Assembly: GCA_963931865.1 (NCBI GenBank)
Contig: OZ007509.1
Span: 2,991,554 to 3,055,553 of the forward strand
Length of the DNA: 64,000 nt
Direction: 5' to 3'
From: Axinella damicornis
Lineage: Eukaryota > Porifera > Demospongiae > Axinellida > Axinellidae
The position numbers were made by a program, and so were the translations under genes. The stretch's first letter is position 1; each line of letters starts with the position of its first letter. Of this stretch, positions 33,486-50,265 are shown one piece after another. Under the pieces are notes generated by a model. The model was not told the DNA's origin and searched no databases. It saw only the letters and a program-made list of their open reading frames with translations.

Positions 33486-34554
33486 TCACTAGCAGTCTGG
33501 TTCCCACACCTCCCTCAGGTCTGGGAACCGGACTGTTGGTGATCTCTTATCTACCTGTATCTGTCTCTCTCTTATTTTCAAGCCATTTAGTATTATTTAT
33601 TTTTATTTTTGTTGGATGTTTTTTTTTCCAACTGTCAACGTTATAATTTGGGTGGAATGTGTACACGGACATCGTCTCGCTTCCATACCGTTATGGGAAT
33701 GGAGCAAAACGTGTAGAGGTCAAGCAGTCTTCAAGTGCTTGTCTGTACGTGCAGCGCAGAGTATCTACTGTTATGGCCGCGGGACTAGTAAGTTGGGCTG
33801 GCAGAGCAGTAGGTTAACTTACAGTCTGTACTCCGTCGTATGAGCTGAGGTACGTTTCCGGCCACGCCCACAATACTTGACGGTTTTATACCTCAAGCCA
33901 TAATACTAGATATAGCTCTGCATCTGACATGGATCCCAATTCCGAGGGGCCGGGAGGTGAATGGAGAGGGTAGTGTCGATGAACCTGAGGCCAGAACTAT
34001 TTAACTGAGGGCCTCATCTGTGAAGGGAAGGATATCTTTTTGTAAGTGGATATTGGTCCGGCAGGAAGTACATACTTCATTAAGAGATCTAGATCCGCAT
34101 GCGCGTTCAGCACTGGCCCTGTCGCTAACTTACCCTAACCATTGCCCTACTTCCTGCCGGACCAATAACCACTTCATATCTTTTTATGGCTACCATGTAC
34201 CAACGGGTTTTGGCTACACAACAAAGTTACTGGACTAAAGATGGAGTGTGTTTGAAAGCAGTAACCACACCGTAGTTCACCTCTGGAGAAGGTACTGTTG
34301 TACTCATAGCCTCAATTGCCATTGCTATCTGGCGAACTCCCCTGCCACAATCACTCATAAGATAAGATATCCTCCTCTATCTCCTGATCTTCTCCCCTCC
34401 ACTTCTCTCCCTTCCCTACCAAGAGCGCAATGAGGATGATGTCATCATGCACTCTTGCATTGTGCTAATAAATACTTTGGCTGTATTTCCTAATACTGTG
34501 TACCAGTCTCAATGGCCAACGATGGCTTGATGCTTTTCGTTTATTTGTTTGTTT
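33486..34554. other. Intergenic region between SLC35A3 and ACADSB
   Basis: No gene seen. Contains a MITE of family B (34045-34175), a degenerate CTGGTTCCCACACC fold-back near 33495-33535, and a family C hairpin at 34424-34456. Confidence 0.6.
34045..34175. mobile_element. MITE family B (GGTCCGGCAGGAAGT ends)
   Basis: Left end AAGTGGATATTGGTCCGGCA, right end TGCCGGACCAATAACCACTT. Flanks GATATCTTTTTGT and CATATCTTTTTAT suggest a roughly 10-bp target duplication. Inner part carries GCGCGTTCAGCACTGGCCCT, shared with 41953-42090. Confidence 0.85.
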
Positions 34555-38492
<3,938 letters not shown>

Positions 38493-41549: not shown

Positions 41550-44500
41550 ATGGCAATGTCCGAGACGGCGCTGGACGCCATTCTTCGCAATTGCGAAACA
41601 TTCGCTGATAAGATCGCATTGCACTGGCTGAACAAAGAATGCGAGGTCGTTCGCGAGCTGTCGTATCGCGATCTGGAGCGCAACACACGCGAACTGGGCA
41701 AGAGGCTCCTGGAGAACTATGCTGCAAGGGGGCAGCGAGCGGTACTCTGCTACCCACCAGGACTACATTTCATCGAAGTCTTCATAGCGTGCCTCCGCAC
41801 GGGAGTGATAGCAGGTACGTACGTACGTACCAGAGAGCTATAGCTGTACTGTGCACTTTTAGGGTAATCCTAGGCTATGCACGCACGCACGCATGTACAG
41901 TAGTGTACCACGCGTACTGCAATAGTGCAATAGTGCACTGCAATAGTGCAACGTGGATATTGGTCCGGCAGGAAGTACATACTTTCGGTATAGCTATATA
42001 GGTAAACGGGCACACATGCGCATTCAGCACTGGCCCTGGCTTATACACTAACCCGGTACCATCGCCCTATTTCCTGCCGGACCAATGATAACACAAAGCC
42101 AGATGTAGCGCTATATAGCAATCCGACCTGTTCTGCAATCTGCTTCTACTATACATGCACTATTACTTATGCAGTGCCAGTCAGTCCCCCTAACCCCTAC
42201 CAAAGTGCCTACACCACCGAGACCCTCATTCGCATTGTCTGTGACTCGGGTGCCCACTGCGTACTCACCAACGACCAGTTCACCCAAGATATCGACCATC
42301 ACCAGCTGGAGAGCCTCAAGCGAGGGAGCCTTGTCCCCTGGTACTCCACTACAGCTGTCCTGAGCACACACGGCCACACGGAGGAGGGAGCATGCGAGGA
42401 CTCACATGGCGTTGTGTGCACGTGTGCTGAGAAGCTAGACACTGCACTACTGGAGGATGTCGCCCTCCTCCAGTATACATCAGGATCAACAGGTGTGTAA
42501 GATGCCGTGAAGACTTTACAGCCATAGCCGATAACATCAATCAACTGACAAGGGTATGCCAGGTCACAGTTCTGATGTCAGGCTAAGCAAGACTGGTTAG
42601 CCCTTCATGGCGCCCCAAAAAGTTGCCAGGGGCATAATATTTGGTAGCACATAATTTCCTGCAGTAATTATGTAACATCCTAGCCTCGTTCCCAGGCCAC
42701 GTGCCCTGGGAACGAGGCTAGTAACATCCCATCACTGTCATGCCAATAACCGGCCATAGTACCACATGACATTGTAGTACAATGTATATTCTTATTCTTG
42801 GTACCACGGAATCCAATACCTCACCACCACAAACTGGTACCGATATCACTATTGGAGGAGCCCTACCATAATTGTACTGTTCACCCTGTCCTGTGAAACT
42901 CCTGTGCAACTTATCATTAATTCCCCCCCCCCCCCCCCCCCCCCCCCCACAAATTCTGTTTCTGCTTAACTTATTATCGAAGTTGTGTCTTGTTTCTTGC
43001 TGCAGGTTTCCCCAAGGGTGTGATGGCCACCCATGCCAATCTGCTGCACAACTGCAAACTCATGTGTGCTGTCATGCAAACGGACAAATTGATGGTCGAA
43101 GTCAGCTTTCTGCCCCACTTCCACGACATGGGGCTTATCTGCAGCTACCTACAGCCTCTGTATTCTGGAGGCACAGGCTATTTCATGTCTCCAGTTACCT
43201 TCGTAGAGAACCCGGGCGTCTGGATCGAAGCCTTTTCCAGGTACAAAGGAACCCACAGCAAAGCCCCAAACTTTGCATTCGAGTTGGTCCTTCGCAAGGG
43301 TTTTCCTGGGAACACCGATCTTAGTACAGTGCGCTACATCACAGACGGTTCCGAGCCAGTTTACGCTGAAACCATCGCCCGATTTGAATCCACCCTTGCC
43401 CCATATGGGCTGAAGAAGAACTCGATTCGTGTTGGCTATGGCCTGGCTGAACACACAGTCTTCCTGTGCGGTGCCCAAGACGAAGACCCGGTAACTGTCA
43501 ATGGTAGAATCAGCTGTGGAAGGCCTACCATGGGAGTCACCGTGAAGATAGTCGATCCCGAGACACGTACAGAAGTCCCCGAAGGAACAGAGGCAGAGAT
43601 ATGGGTGCACAGTGAGTCAAAAACTATTGGCTACTGGGAGAAAGAGGATGAGACACAGAGTACCTTCGAGGCACAGCTGGTCAATGACACAAGAAGACGC
43701 TACCTTCGTACCGGTGACTTGGGGTTCGTCAAACAAGGCCAGCTGTTTGTTTCAGGACGAAGAAAGGACCTCATTGTGATACACGGTCGCAACGTACACC
43801 CAAGCGATGTCGAACTGAGAATTGAGTCACAGCAGGATGCGGTGAGGGCTGGACGAAGCGCTGCATTTGAGTACGAGTATACCTGCACATGTCTTCAGGA
43901 TGCAATACCCACTAGAGGAGTTGGCTTTGTAGCTGAGATCCGCTTCCCCGAACAGCATACTCCTTCTCACCTCCACATGCTTGCTGAACAGGTGGTGGCC
44001 ACCATCACACTGGACTTCCAGGTCGAAGTGCCGGTGGTAGTTTTCATCAGGCCTCGAGCGATGCCTCGTACCACGTCCGGCAAGAGACAGAGGCTACTGT
44101 GTAAGAAGCAGCTGATTGCTGGCCTCCTTAGTGAGCTATATCACTGGTCAAAGTTCAAAACACCACCTCATTCAGATGCAACCCCTGGCCGCAATACAAA
44201 ACCTCACACTCCCATTTTACCGTCCATACTAGAACCGGAATCGGAGCTGGAGGAATGTGGTGATGACTCTCCTGACACACCAAAGGCATCTTCCCTACAC
44301 TCACAGAGAAAGACCACAAAATCACCGTTCATTGCCTCAGGAAAAAAAGCAACTCCTTCAAAGTCTCCCAAGAGACGGAGCAGCTTAGACACACTCACGG
44401 CAACCGTGAGCACAGTACTGGGGGTCAAGCTCCAACCACATTCAAACATTTGGGCGTATGGGTGCAACTCGGTGAAGGCAGTTCAAATCAGCCAAATACT

Positions 44501-47500
44501 GCAGGCGGAGTTTGGATTTGCAGTGGAGCCCCACTTGTTGTTCACACACCAGACACCTAAAGCCCTACTGGAAAAGCTCACGAGAAACCTCCTGAGTGTG
44601 CAGTCTCCCGAGAAAAAGGAGAAAGAGAAATCGCAGGGAAAAAGTCTCAGGTCGCAGTCACTGCCAGCGTCACAGCCACAGCTCCCCCACCTGTTCAAAG
44701 ATGGTCCTCAACCTGCACTGAGCTCCAAGCACAGAAAGGAGGACATTGCAATTGTGGGGATGGCCTGCTGCTTTGCGGGTAAGCGATCTTTTACCACTGA
44801 CTGCGGCATGTGCTTTGTTTTTGTGTGTATGGCACTAGCCTCGTCCCCAGACCACATTGGGAGGCCTGGGAACGAGGCTAGTGGTACATGAATGAGAAAT
44901 ATCTTATTACATGTCATAGCAGACCAGAACGTTTGCATTTCCATGGGTTGCTAATAAGCAGTGCTTCACTTCCTGTCTAGGGGCCAAATGCAGTTCCCTC
45001 ATTGGTTGAACCTTTGACCTACATAATAGCCAAGTACACACAAAGGTTGTATATGTTCCACCAGGAGCCTTCGCGGCGCTCATAAGCTCCTGGTTCCACG
45101 CAATGTAGGAATTTGCAAGATTGTATTTTCAATTTCCTAAATTCCGAGATTGCACAACACAATCTCCAGACAGTACACAAATTCCAAGAGTCCATGGAAC
45201 ATATGTAGAGGTGATAAGCCACTATGAGAGGATCATGTCATGTAGTGCTTTCTATCTCTGTCCAGGCTGTGACTGCCCTGCTTCCCTTTGGGATATGATG
45301 ATCAACAAAAAGGTGGCAACCACTTCCATCTGCAACCCCACCACCAGTCAAACGATCCACGGGGCATTTGTGAAGGAAACCAGTACCTTTGACTACAGCT
45401 GGTTTGGAATTTCGGAATGGGAAGCCTCAATCATGGACCCCCAGCAGTCACTGCTTCTACACCGGACCTGGGAATGCCTCCAGAGTGCAGGGTACGGTTC
45501 ACGTGAGTCACTGGATCGAATCAGAGGGTCTGACTTTGGCGTATTTGTGGGGGTGTGCAGTAGTGATGCACGTGTACTGGGCCAGTCGAGAAAACCGCTT
45601 CCGCTTGGGACTAGCTTTGTGAGTAGCATAGCCGCAAACAGAATCTCCCACAGCTTTGGCTTCACAGGTCCGAGCGTGGCTATTGACACTGCATGTGCAG
45701 CCTCTCTCTCAGCTCTTCATGCAGCATGCACCTCCCTCCATCTCAAAGAATGCAATGCCTCCCTCGTAGGTGGCGTCAACGTCCTCCTCGACCCAAATGG
45801 TACTGCAATGCTGGCCAACATGGGCATGCTCTCTCCAGACGGCAAGTGCCGTGTATTTGACGCCGGTGCAAACGGATATGTTCGAGGTGAAGGATGTGGG
45901 ATGGTTCTATTGATGACGGTATCAAGAGCCAGGAAGGAAGGCAGGAGGATCTCAGCTGTGATAAAGTCCACTGCCACAAACCACAACGGGACTTCGGCTA
46001 CCCTGACCTCTCCAAGCAGCACAGCTCAGAAGAAATTGCTTCAGAAGTCGCTCAGTGTTGCAGAACTCCGACCCAAGGATATCGTCTACCTGGAGGCGCA
46101 TGGCACTGCCACAGTACTTGGAGACCCCATAGAGGTAGACACCGTAGAAGAAGTATTTGGCTCGCAAAGTGAAGAAGAGGGAAGAAGTTTTCCACTCGTC
46201 TTGGGCTCTGTCAAAGCCAACATCGGACATCTTGAAACTGGTGCTGGAATCGCTGGGTTGATAAAAACGGTGTTGGTGCTTGAGCACGCCAAAGCACCTG
46301 GTAATGCCTGCCTACAAACCATCAACCCTGCATTCAGCTACAGTCACGCACAGATCAACATCCCACGTGATGCGGTCAGTCTTGAAGGCTGTTGTCATGG
46401 AGACTACGACCTCTTGTGTGCAGGGGTCAGCTCGTTTGGGTTTGGGGGGACAAACGTGAATGCCATACTGCAGCAGTACAGCCAGCTACCACACATGGCA
46501 GGAGTGGAGTGCAGCGTCCTCTTTGCTCCGGTGCACGTGACAGGAAGAGAAAATTTGGCTGAATTTCTTTCTTCGATGTTGGCATCGCTTTGCTCAATGG
46601 TGGCATCCTTTCAGCATGCCTACCTGTCCTGTCAAGATTGCATCACCAGGGCTCTCAAAGGCTATGCCAGCACAGCTACCAAAAAATCGTCCCTGGAATG
46701 CCTAGACCTGTCGACCGTTCTACAGCAGCCAGAGGTGCTGGCGTTTCTTCTCTTCTACAGTGTAGCAGTCACTCTTCAGGTGCAGAGAGTCAAGATCTCA
46801 CTGATCGGTGGTCTTGACTTGTGTGGAGAGCTAGTGGCCCTTGCTTTCAGTGGAGTTTTGGGGCTTTCAGACATAATGCGTCTACTGCTCCATGGCATAG
46901 CTCCAGACAAATGCAGCATTTATGCCCTACCTTCGGCTGGGAGCATTGCACTACCTCCTACAATGCCCATCTTCTCACACACTCTCGGCAAAGTTTGTAG
47001 CCCACAACAATCAGAGTTCGGCAATGACTACCTTCTTCGCGTAATCTCAAAGTTGCGGGAAGGCAAACTCCAGCAGACAACACCACTGGAAGCCAGTACC
47101 ACTTTCATAGCGCCAAGCTTCCAGCCAGGTGTCTGTATCTCACTCCTCCCTGACACCACCACCATTTTCCAGAGCAAAGCTAGCAATACTATCTTCATCA
47201 CATTTCAAGATGAATCCTACTCTCCTGTGGAACACTTCAGGGAAAAGTGTCTGGAGCTTCGGTGTTTGAGCGACACGTTAGCACTTGAAAGCTGCAACAA
47301 CAAGCCCTCCAGCAATGTGAAGATGCCTGCGTTCTATGAACGCTACCCACTCAGAGCTCTTGTTGACGGGCTCCGTCCGCCAGCAGAGCACATGCCAGAG
47401 ACAACCAGTGATGGGAAACACCGCTCACATACGAGGCAGTTAAATGAGACAGAACTGAAGGAGAGTGACAATGCAAGCATCGCGAGAGAGGAGTCGGGTT

Positions 47501-48720
47501 ATATCACTCAAAGTGCCTCCACTGAGCTAGTAGAGTTGCCACTCCCTTCACAGCGGCAAGCTCCCAAGACTGACACCTCCCTTCCCTTCCCTAAAATAGT
47601 GTCCCGAATGGAACAAGCAAAGCAGAAAATCATCAGTGATCTCTTCAGCATAGTCATGAAGGACCTGGAGAATCCTGACATGCCGGTTGGAAAGGTTGCA
47701 ACAATGGGTTTCTTTGCAATGGGGCTTGACTCTCTGAACATGATGGAGATTCGTGACTACATGTTCAGAAACTATGAAGTCAGTCAGAATTACTCAGACC
47801 TCTTGGAACTGGAAACACTTGAAGCAATGGCAGAGGTAGTAATGGAAGCTAATCCATCCCTGATGATGAAACTCAGCTGTGGATGTGGAGAAGACGAAGA
47901 GGAAGCGTCTGTCCAGCACTCTGACGCTCACGTTGACACGACCGTAGTACTGCAAGCTCTGCTTCAGTTGGTCGAGAATGAAATCGAATCGCCAGACTTG
48001 TCTCTTGAGAAATTTGCAAGTAGCGGTATATTTCAGTTGGGATTGGATTCCCTCAATATTATGCAAATAGCTGACTTTCTCCGCCAGGCGTACAAAGTCG
48101 ACAAAGAGTTCTCAGAATTGATTGAGTGTGAAACGATGGGAGAAATTGCAGAAATGGTCACCCGAGAAACTCCAGTTCTGGCAGCAAAAGAAGAAGAAAG
48201 CAAATCTATCTCAAAGACCGAAGGCGTGTCAGGCATTCAACCTGCCACATCTCCGGATGCTACAGAGGGCAACAGCATCACTCTTGGTGAGTTGGCAGCT
48301 GCAGCTCCACTTGTTCTGACAAAGGAGGGCTACTACACTGTACCATCAACCGCTGAAATCGCCAAGCTGTCACTCAAAGACTTAGAAATGGTTCACAACT
48401 TCACGGTTGGCCGTAGAGGGGTTGGTAAAGTCACATTCCTTGGAGCATCTGACATTTCAGAGCTCAACTTAGATCAGTTGGTGCAAATTGAACCACAGCG
48501 TGTTCAACTGCATCCCAACCAGCACAAGAGTGGGAACCTGAACAAGCCGGCACTCATTTTCTTTGAGAACATCCATCCACTGGAGAAGACGGAGAGCAGC
48601 TACAAGATCCTTGAAAGAGCGCTGAAGTACTTGTGTGACAAGCAACAGGTGTCAGCTCAGTTTGTGAACCACGATGCGGAATCAGGTGAATTTGTGATGA
48701 AAGTTGATCACTTTTACTGA
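41550..48720 (+). CDS. FAAL-ACP-KS-(dead AT)-ACP-ACP-Nup98 autopeptidase megasynthase
   Basis: Four exons: 41550-41814, 42175-42492, 43006-44778 and 45266-48720; 1936 residues, phases agree. Domains: (1) fatty acyl-AMP ligase, about 1-600, with YTSGSTGFPKGVMATH, the FAAL-type THSKAPNFAFELV segment, YGLAEHT and RTGDLGF...GRRKDLIV; (2) ACP1, Ser near 682 in YGCNSVKAV (Asp of DSL is Asn); (3) ketosynthase, about 770-1190, Cys929 in DTACAAS, His1064 in EAHGTA, His1107 in NIGHLE; (4) acyltransferase-like region, about 1200-1400, where GHSxGE has become GGLDLCGE, so no nucleophile; (5) ACP2 and ACP3 with intact GLDSLN, Ser1608 and Ser1714; (6) Nup98-type S59 autopeptidase, about 1807-1936, from GYYTVPS through LNKPALI to FVMKVDHFY. 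No KR, DH, ER or thioesterase. Expected: activates a fatty acid, extends it with extender units loaded in trans. The introns make it a eukaryotic gene. Confidence 0.92.
41953..42090. mobile_element. MITE family B in megasynthase intron 1
   Basis: GTGGATATTGGTCCGGCAGG at the left, TTTCCTGCCGGACCAAT at the right, and the shared GCATTCAGCACTGGCCCTG inside. Confidence 0.8.
42681..42720. mobile_element. Minimal family A fold-back with TSD
   Basis: TAGCCTCGTTCCCAGGCCAC directly followed by the complementary end, 40 bp in all. GTAACATCC flanks it on both sides. Lies in megasynthase intron 2. Confidence 0.9.
42923..42948. repeat. Poly(C) tract in megasynthase intron 2
   Basis: Run of 26 C on the coding strand, 57 bases before the exon 3 acceptor. 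Confidence 0.95.
44836..44880. mobile_element. Family A fold-back in megasynthase intron 3
   Basis: TAGCCTCGTCCCCAGACC and GGCCTGGGAACGAGGCTA around a short loop, inside the intron that splits the ketosynthase N-terminus. Confidence 0.8.
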
Positions 48721-48790
48721 AAACTAGGGTATGCTTTTAGCCTTTGCAATCCTCAATTGAATGACAGTTAGTCCTTTCAATGTGTAATTA

Positions 48791-50265
48791 TCAACAATGA
48801 AAGTGAATGAGTACCGTTATCCTTACTTGCAGTTCCGGGTTTCCTTCAGGTAGAGGTGGGACAGGGTGGGCAAAAGCATCTTCAATGAGGGGAAGAATGG
48901 CTTGGCTACAAAAAAAAAAGATGTCATACTAGTCATGAAAGAGGTAGACAAAAGGTTTCCAAATTTTGAATAGCAAGAAGGGACCCAGTCTAGCCGCTAG
49001 CCCCTCTCCACCTGGCCGCCAAGCACGTGTGTGACCGGCCAGGCGGGAGAGGCAAGTTGCTAGACCGGAAGCAACCTACCAGGCATTTTTAAGATACTGT
49101 TCCTGATCACCCGCACTGCTGATTACGACGCTCCTTCTTTCCCAGTGGTAGTTGGCATGGTCAGGCAGTTCCATTCTCTGTTCCATTCCCTCGATGGTGG
49201 AATGGGGAATGGGGATCCTTCTCATGGAATTCCGCTCAATAGCTACTGAAATGGGACACTGGACACACACTTCTGCAAACCCTAACTGATCTGCACGTAA
49301 ACAACAAGCAGACATGTTGGTGAGCATGGAAATGGGTTAGGCTAGCTTACAGAAGGCTCCAGGATGTATTGGGTGTACATTTTCTTGCCATTTGGTAGTA
49401 TTCATATCGCATGCTTCTCAGTGGCATGTTGTCATCTAGAAAGAGAACTGTGGGTCGTCTGCAGCTGTGATAGAGTCTTGGGGGGAGGGGAGGAAGGAGG
49501 GGACGGAGGGAGGGAGGGAGGGAGGGAGGGAGGGAGGGAGGGAGGGAAAGAGAGGGCACGTACAGTAGAGTGTAAGGGATAACAAGTAAGTTTGGTTGTG
49601 ATCAGCGTACCTTCCCCTCTCATCCAGGAGCTCCCTTCCACTGCAGCTGTTACAGACACAAGACACAAACCTCTCCCACTGAGAGGGAGTGTCAGTACCC
49701 GGCAAATCCATGCCTCCACTGCTGCAGCTGCTTACTCCGAGGTTATTGAGTGCTATCAAGTACTCTAGACATGCATTCACTTCCAATCTCACTGCCTTCT
49801 GCATGAACGGCTCAGTACTGGTTTCCTGTCATAGAAAGTAAGTGGTTGACATGGGAATTGAGACAAAAATTGGTGTCCTTGTGGCTTAAGTTTCAATCCA
49901 TGTTAACATTAGTGCATGAATTATGCCAGTACCCATAATAATGTAACCACGAGTTGATTACATCATGAGTAGGTTTATTTCATATCGTTGGCTTTCAGTA
50001 TTATCAAATGAGGAGTCAGACTACCCATACTGTTAAGTCAGATCAATGGACAAACCTCTTCTTTGCTCTGTTCAAGATGTTCACGAAACCTCAGATCTTG
50101 GGGATAGAAGTTGTCAAAATTTACTGCAACAAGGTTCCACCGCAGATCAGCACCAGGGGAGCTGCCAACTAAATGTCTCGTGAGCAGAGTCTTCCCAGAT
50201 CCAGGAATACCGAAGATCGGTAGGATGCACGCTGCGAGCGGGGGGATCCTCTCTTGGGCTGACAT
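48791..50265 (-). CDS. PSTK: O-phosphoseryl-tRNA(Sec) kinase
   Basis: Phosphorylates Ser-tRNA(Sec), the step before SepSecS in selenocysteine synthesis. Exons: 50265-50056, 49825-49611, 49458-49379, 49290-49080 and 48905 downward. The N-terminus has the P-loop GIPGSGKT (about residues 19-26); exon 3 gives FLDDNMPLRSMRYEYYQMARK, joined across a phase-1 intron to YQLGFAEV, the characteristic PSTK stretch. Exon 5 encodes LPLIEDAFAHPVPPLPE. The 3' end is uncertain: reading on past a GCAA|GTAAGG donor gives a stop at 48791 and 276 residues; a further short exon may exist, since animal PSTK is usually near 350. The gene converges on the megasynthase stop (71 bp apart) and diverges from PI4K2 (140 bp between start codons). 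It implies the organism makes selenoproteins. Confidence 0.88.
48989..49067. mobile_element. Fold-back, family D, in PSTK intron 4
   Basis: CAGTCTAGCCGCTAGCCCCT at the left, GGCAAGTTGCTAGACCGG at the right, same family as 14470-14533 but with a longer loop and no clear target duplication. Confidence 0.75.
49495..49550. repeat. GGGA repeat (pyrimidine on PSTK coding strand)
   Basis: GAGG/GGGA repeats; read on the minus strand they are CCTCCC units 37 bases upstream of the PSTK exon 3 acceptor. Confidence 0.9.

Follow-up and report, generated by a model that had tools for sequence, protein, structure and literature searches.

A predicted gene of Axinella damicornis joins a fatty-acid-AMP-ligase-like polyketide synthase to a Nup98-type S59 domain

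Results

Gene model and domain order

The window, by which we mean the whole 64,000-nucleotide stretch of Axinella damicornis DNA analysed here, contains a predicted gene of four exons whose 5811-bp coding sequence is uninterrupted by internal stops (Table 1). The encoded protein presents, in order, a fatty-acid-AMP-ligase-like module, an ACP, a ketosynthase (KS), about 370 residues without an assignable family, two further ACPs and a Nup98-type S59 domain. This model was predicted by reading splice sites in the genomic sequence. The KS, the tandem ACPs and the S59 domain share one frame of the 3455-bp fourth exon, as an earlier sequence-only reading of this DNA had proposed, and all of the motifs that it quoted are present. 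That reading had recognized the two C-terminal ACPs; the total, however, is three, with ACP1 lying between the ligase and the KS.

Table 1. Predicted features of the fusion gene (positions in the window)
Feature	Position	Strand	Residues	Remarks
Whole predicted coding span	41550-48720	+	1936 aa	4 exons; ~213 kDa
Exons	41550-41814, 42175-42492, 43006-44778, 45266-48720	+		Predicted; GT-AG introns
Fatty-acid-AMP-ligase-like module	41586-44111	+	13-563	PF00501; two introns within
ACP1	44391-44573	+	657-717	PF00550, E 2.3e-09; Ser683 at phosphopantetheine position
Ketosynthase	45346-46308	+		PF00109, PF02801; Pfam E 3.9e-59 and 1.1e-32
Stretch without assignable domain	46480-47590	+	~370 aa	Pfam to E 5: PF22881 alone, 0.015, below cut-off
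Tandem ACP2 and ACP3	47634-48159	+	Ser1608, Ser1714	PF00550, 2 stretches, 1.5e-13; left edge estimated
ACP3-S59 linker	48160-48324	+		Open; coding signal in same frame
Nup98-type S59	48325-48720	+	1806-1935	PF04096; ends VDHFY-stop

Introns 2 and 3 contain a CTCGTTCCCAGGC-type repeat that is also present at the Nup98 locus of the genome. Nine other frames of the window were scanned, six of which match a Pfam family and three none; these families include EFCAB10, acyl-CoA dehydrogenase and nucleotide-sugar transporter. The shared repeat and the Pfam-bearing frames argue for host DNA, and the fusion gene is probably nuclear and, as far as our searches show, single copy. The same genome also holds a silicatein-type exon (locus L042) and a mitochondrial contig of 41 kb, rich in tRNA, both of which indicate that the host is most likely a demosponge.

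Synthase modules

The AMP-binding family PF00501 matches the ligase module with an E value of 2.5e-66, and PF23024 matches it below its cut-off. When the N-terminal 786 residues were compared with NCBIfam, the top model was PRK05691 (NRPS/PKS; 331 bits against a cut-off of 4090) and the top fatty-acid--AMP ligase was PRK05850 (314 bits against 775). Seven of the ten best models are named fatty-acid- or fatty-acyl-AMP ligases, all of the best 25 of 100 families scoring below their curated cut-offs. Exon 3 alone likewise returned such names for seven of its ten best models, and its best PDB match, 7r7e, is named polyketide synthase.

The catalytic residues of the KS are kept (Cys in DTACAAS, 926; His in LEAHGT, 1061; His in NIGHLE, 1104), as are the serines of all three ACPs. 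A Cys-His-His KS and ACPs on one chain (PF00109, PF02801, PF00550) constitute the composition of a type I PKS. Pfam searches up to E 5 found no acyltransferase after the KS, as a cis-AT PKS would have, and no dehydratase, pseudo-KR, KR or reductase family was matched by Pfam in the fusion protein. The start of the unassigned stretch overlaps a match to the KS C-terminal extension PF16197, itself below cut-off.

Two further type I KS frames occur on other contigs, C1 and C11. A by-eye reading of the unassigned stretch as an acyltransferase relic was rejected for lack of support: its alignment to the C1 acyltransferase scored 30, a value attained in 263 of 300 shuffles. Against C11 the score was 48, reached in 6 of 300 shuffles, but this alignment pairs the front of the stretch with the rear part of the C11 segment.

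The ligase-ACP-KS order is common to the fusion protein and cyanobacterial FAAL-ACP-KS starters such as LEP3755_65830 of Leptolyngbya sp. NIES-3755 plasmid2, the two proteins being identical at 173 of 420 KS residues (41%) and at 189 of 620 residues of the exon 3 ligase-ACP stretch (30%). After its KS, however, the Leptolyngbya protein continues with an acyltransferase and a dehydratase, whereas in the fusion protein the KS is followed by the unassigned stretch, the tandem ACPs and the S59 domain. What the fusion protein shares with animal FAS and FAS-like PKS (AFPK) is a type I KS with ACP encoded by an animal, but of the animal FAS series KS-MAT-DH-ER-KR-ACP only the KS and ACPs are found here.

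Integrity of the fusion

Of 223 scoring windows along exon 4, 213 favour the true frame by codon score, and 212 do so with a second background. In the linker between ACP3 and S59 the score per codon is +0.25 in the true frame, compared with -0.07 and -0.30 in the others (second background: +0.29, compared with -0.13 and -0.41). Neither AATAAA nor ATTAAA occurs between the synthase and S59 parts; this is weak evidence because both are also missing from the 1 kb past the stop codon. We regard it as highly probable that the synthase and S59 belong to one predicted gene. The fused frame could instead be a genomic coincidence, in which alternative promoters or splicing would give a separate synthase and Nup98-like protein, or would remove S59 from the majority of transcripts. 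The frame is predicted from genomic DNA, and a donor-like GTGAGT lies at 48287 in the linker, with two more GTGAGT elsewhere in exon 4, but the single exon, the single frame, the coding signal of the linker and the lack of in-frame stops make such a coincidence very unlikely.

The S59 domain

The S59 domain matches PF04096, whose members include human Nup98, yeast Nup116 and yeast Nup145N, with an E value of 2.8e-25 (89.6-92.3 bits; cut-off 28.4), which bears out the sequence-only reading on this point. The match covers profile positions 2-143 of 148, and the motifs follow in the order of the Nup98 autoproteolytic domain: GYYTVPS at 1807, FTVGRRG at 1831, LNKPAL at 1877 and FVMKVDHF, ending in the C-terminal HF, at 1928, with NIHP in the same translation. 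The closest PDB matches, reaching 71 bits, are vertebrate chains that bear the name Nup98 or Nup98-Nup96; the fungal Nup145 and Nup116 chains score 36-45 bits. An AlphaFold model from a 3-row alignment had a mean pLDDT of 39.1 and was useless.

In Nup98 the S59 domain serves to anchor the protein at the nuclear pore. The fused domain differs in that it is joined to a synthase rather than to FG repeats, and in that HF is followed by Tyr and a stop (residues 1932-1936) rather than by Ser. Since the serine nucleophile is replaced in this way, self-cleavage is not expected, and a role as an active autopeptidase was rejected; "autopeptidase", the term used earlier, probably describes the ancestry of the fused domain and not its activity. 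Yeast Nup100 and Nup116 likewise end near the HF site and are uncleaved. The GLFG repeats of Nup98 are absent from all 1936 residues. FG occurs eight times, scattered along the chain, and four of these dipeptides fall inside the KS Pfam matches. A role in product release, for which S59 had been proposed as a scaffold, was dropped for lack of support, no thioesterase-like family having been found in the protein by Pfam.

A genome search for S59 found one other copy, in a Nup98 gene. Its S59 contains two introns and the HFS cleavage site (EHFSKYK), which indicates that a separate housekeeping Nup98 exists; the fused S59 is intronless. The two domains are identical at 48 of 135 aligned residues (36%), and their local alignment scores 176 against a shuffle maximum of 49 (n=300), so the likeness is not due to chance. 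The best PDB score of the genome's Nup98 is 161 bits. Because the fused domain is far more divergent, its Nup88- and Nup96-binding surfaces may have been lost.

The fused S59 is probably derived from a copy of Nup98 whose introns were lost or which passed through RNA. The missing introns and the missing serine would also suit a retrocopy tail of recent date, functionless and in decay, yet the 36% identity marks the domain as old, and it has neither stop nor frameshift, reaches 92 bits in the profile and retains its codon signal; we judge a functionless tail to be highly improbable.

Discussion

The domain families suggest a course for the synthase. The ligase module would convert a fatty acid to acyl-AMP and load it on ACP1, and the KS would condense the loaded acyl group with a malonyl-type unit on ACP2 or ACP3. 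A trans-acting acyltransferase would charge the extender unit, a step we propose because none was detected within the fusion protein.

From the predicted protein, docking or tethering is our best inference for the role of the fused S59; a megasynthase fusion together with such a docking role has, in our estimation, about an even chance of being correct. With the serine lost and a stop following HF, the S59 domain would stay permanently at the C-terminus of the synthase, in the manner of the mature Nup98 domain after cleavage, and could hold the enzyme at an S59-binding partner. At the nuclear envelope the simplest partner would be a nucleoporin of the Nup88 or Nup96 type, although a new partner is conceivable. 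The fullest form of this proposal, that a captured, non-cleaving Nup98 domain permanently tethers a fatty-acid-extending synthase to the nuclear pore or envelope, where its lipid or polyketide would be made, is speculative and on balance unlikely.

The domain might alternatively be a structural part, or one for docking within the enzyme; it would bind the KS, an ACP or a partner enzyme acting in trans and be unconnected with the nuclear pore. It directly follows the tandem ACPs, the usual place for a docking or release domain, and is highly divergent from Nup98, and the protein has no GLFG and only the scattered FG dipeptides described above. The near-complete profile and the conserved HF end, however, are what would be expected if the ancestral interface were still used, and no partner enzyme is known; intra-enzyme docking is, in our estimation, somewhat unlikely. 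If the fusion is expressed, a megasynthase has captured a nucleoporin anchoring domain, and our searches of the open literature found no precedent for addressing an enzyme of biosynthesis to a structure of the cell in this way.

A 2024 survey reports type I ketosynthase proteins as absent from sponges (PMC10764717). The intron-bearing fusion gene, as predicted, disagrees with that statement: if the organism is a sponge, at least one gene for a type I ketosynthase lies on its chromosomes, which would bear on the origin of animal FAS and PKS genes. The C1 and C11 KS frames are at most candidate sponge genes, because a COX1-family match on contig C4 is a gene pair of bacterial look. The host repeat was found in neither flank of these two frames, and its equal absence at the silicatein-type locus makes this indecisive. 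A scan of the genome's contigs gave two loci at 27-28% identity, and the fusion KS is identical to the FAS-like frame on C1 at 140 of 409 residues (34%). In a poorly resolved KS tree, built with 6 of the 12 plasmid matches listed (1217 records) and the Leptolyngbya KS, seven of nine inner branches are open; the fusion KS stands apart from the C1 frame and joins the KS of a Vibrio PKS, on a branch whose support of 94/98 does not attain the starred level.

Identification of a synthase fused to a Nup98-type domain

The fusion gene lies on a 20.3-Mb contig (C5), of which the window spans 2,991,554-3,055,553, in a genome comprising 226.5 Mb in 120 contigs, and the gene's exons, predicted from splice sites, are joined by GT-AG introns into a frame that has no internal stops and encodes 1936 aa. 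Pfam searches of the product identified an AMP-binding domain, an acyl carrier protein (ACP), a ketosynthase (KS) in two parts, two further ACP stretches and an S59 domain (PF04096, E 2.8e-25, profile positions 2-143 of 148); the match to the KS C-terminal extension was under its cut-off. The sequence-only reading had claimed a fatty-acid-activating polyketide synthase fused to a Nup98-type autopeptidase domain. The complete open four-exon frame and the significant PF04096 match of the C-terminal part confirm the fusion, and the last exon has the claimed size of 3455 bp. The two ACPs that it reported are present as a C-terminal pair, recovered again when scanned alone, but the protein has three in all; similarly, the S59 family assignment holds, but the cleavage serine of an autopeptidase is missing. 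The fusion is both real and surprising.

Coordinates of the fusion gene and of other features in the genome
Feature	Location	Strand	Basis or content
Fusion gene, four exons	window 41550-41814, 42175-42492, 43006-44778, 45266-48720	+	predicted from splice sites
Acyl-CoA dehydrogenase exons	window 34494-38234		
Two adjoining frames, 486 aa and 208 aa	C4, near 14.81 Mb (L023:1399-3470)	minus	
FAS-like type I single open frame, 1877 aa	C1:17095094-17100727 (L017:595-6228)	minus	KS, AT, FAS pseudo-KR, KR, ACP
Hybrid NRPS-PKS single frame, 4098 aa (part)	C11, L018:6796-9999 and L019:3-8000	minus	domain matches
Silicatein-type exon, Ser for Cys	L042, C2:12070000-12079900	minus	region rich in cathepsin-family matches

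The S59 domain and its connection to the synthase

Against the PDB, the fused S59 domain matched 23 distinct solved relatives, named Nup98, Nup98-Nup96, Nup96, Nup145 or Nup116, with a best score of 71 bits (Nup98-Nup96) and a best Nup145 score of 45 bits. Aligned with the S59 domain of the genome's own Nup98, it is identical at 48 of 135 residues (score 176; maximum of 300 shuffles, 49). A rival explanation is that the synthase and S59, connected by a linker that follows the third ACP, are made from separate transcripts. To train a codon score, five pieces were taken from the genome's other KS-bearing frames (two of them from the C11 frame). This score preferred the true frame in 213 of the 223 forty-codon windows of exon 4 when the background was window stretches not screened for genes, and in 212 when the background came from reading those training frames in the wrong frame. 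Across a 38-codon linker stretch the true frame scored +0.25 per codon, versus -0.07 and -0.30 in the other forward frames, with the first background, and +0.29 versus -0.13 and -0.41 with the second. A donor-like GTGAGT occurs in the linker at 48287, with two others elsewhere in exon 4. Neither AATAAA nor ATTAAA was found in 47001-49800, which covers the linker and the kilobase past the stop codon; this absence says little about the linker, since it extends to the kilobase past the fusion gene's own stop.

A family search revealed at least three S59 stretches in the genome: the fused copy and two others, which are parts of a single gene on contig C2. The exons of this C2 Nup98 splice into an S59 domain that has two introns and the site EHFSKYK, whereas the fused domain is intronless and terminates in VDHFY-stop, an organization equally compatible with an old retrocopy and with intron loss. 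The best solved relative of the C2 domain, a Nup98-Nup96, scores 161 bits, and by this measure the divergence of the fused copy is far greater. Nup98 self-cleavage proceeds by an acyl shift at HF|S; lacking the serine, the fused domain cannot run this known chemistry. Such losses could also mark a decaying tail, a rival reading against which stands the codon preference seen in most windows of exon 4. The S59 domain is reportedly, from a title by Hodel et al., the pore-targeting part of Nup98. The fused domain may still target the pore, though its divergence from Nup98 calls for caution; alternatively, S59 may serve docking within the enzyme itself. The safest reading, in which we have moderate confidence, is that the synthase would load a fatty acid and then extend it, carrying the non-cleaving Nup98-type S59 as a putative docking domain.

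Composition of the synthase

The Cys and both His residues of the KS are present, as is a serine at the carrier position of each of the three ACPs. When the N-terminal 786 aa were searched against NCBIfam, the ten best models included seven named fatty-acid- or fatty-acyl-AMP ligase; the top row was an NRPS/PKS model, and the best 25 of 100 models were all under their cut-offs (314 bits for the best ligase-named model, cut-off 775); exon 3 alone gave a similar outcome. No acyltransferase was detected in the fusion protein. A cyanobacterial plasmid protein shares its ligase-ACP-KS order (41% identity in KS, 30% in ligase-ACP), but there acyltransferase and dehydratase domains follow the KS.

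Eight KS matches were found in the genome, three in large frames (C5, C1 and C11) and five FabF-like (three on C2, two on C7). The C1 KS (22.6-Mb contig) is 34% identical to that of the fusion, and the C11 frame (12.9-Mb contig) contains two AMP-binding stretches, condensation, KS, AT and thioesterase domains. A KS tree of 12 rows, with seven of nine inner branches open, does not settle the origin of the KS. The exon 4 protein had nine genomic matches including itself, among which only the fusion gene extends past a KS or S59 piece, and exon 3 had six including itself, the next best at 30% identity. From these searches the fusion gene looks single copy.

Host origin

The two adjoining frames on C4, a 20.6-Mb contig, comprise a COX1-family frame (486 aa) and a small c-type-haem frame with a CxxCH haem site (208 aa), which we take to be a look-alike of bacterial norC-norB (nitric-oxide reductase). 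In NCBIfam one matched no family and the other a single weak domain under cut-off. They look like scaffolded symbiont DNA or a transfer; large contigs may thus hold foreign stretches, and the fusion gene therefore required a test of host origin. Introns 2 and 3 contain the repeat type CTCGTTCCCAGGC, also present at the Nup98 locus, and Pfam scans of nine other frames in the window gave families for six (EFCAB10, CBM21, nucleotide-sugar transporter, acyl-CoA dehydrogenase, glycosyltransferase 7 and ribosomal S14) and none for three. On this sequence evidence, the fusion gene is host DNA. The exons for an acyl-CoA dehydrogenase, which precede the synthase by a few kb, are probably neighbours by chance. 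The repeat was absent from the flanks of the C1 and C11 KS frames and also from L042, so it is uninformative on their host origin, and these frames are not proven sponge genes.

Relation to published work and identity of the genome

No literature was found on polyketide synthase, Nup98 and sponge together; by their titles, records on Nup98 and polyketide synthase concerned only rice blast or rice disease, and the accessible parts of those on Nup98 domain architecture described no synthase-S59 fusion. If the genome is that of a sponge, the C5 gene disagrees with a 2024 survey, whose available text reports no type I KS proteins in sponges (PMC10764717).

Ten cathepsin-like loci scanned first were split evenly between those with the ordinary Cys motif and those with no such motif (five each). 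Among four further stretches two had Cys and one, L042, Ser for Cys; the best PDB match of this exon was silicatein alpha (42.3 bits), by a narrow margin over a cathepsin-silicatein chimera (41.4 bits) and cathepsins (at most 40.8).

The mitochondrial contig (C120) has 41,168 bases, unusually large for an animal. Over the 35 kb analysed its GC content is about 49%, and ARAGORN found 21 tRNA genes there, all on a single strand. Its cox1 is in three pieces, two with TGA inside. A tRNA set of this size, with TGA translated as sense, points to a sponge or placozoan and away from a cnidarian. Considered along with the silicatein-type exon, these traits make a demosponge the most likely source of the genome. 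In six-frame translation, the mitochondrial contig repeatedly yields the same peptides.
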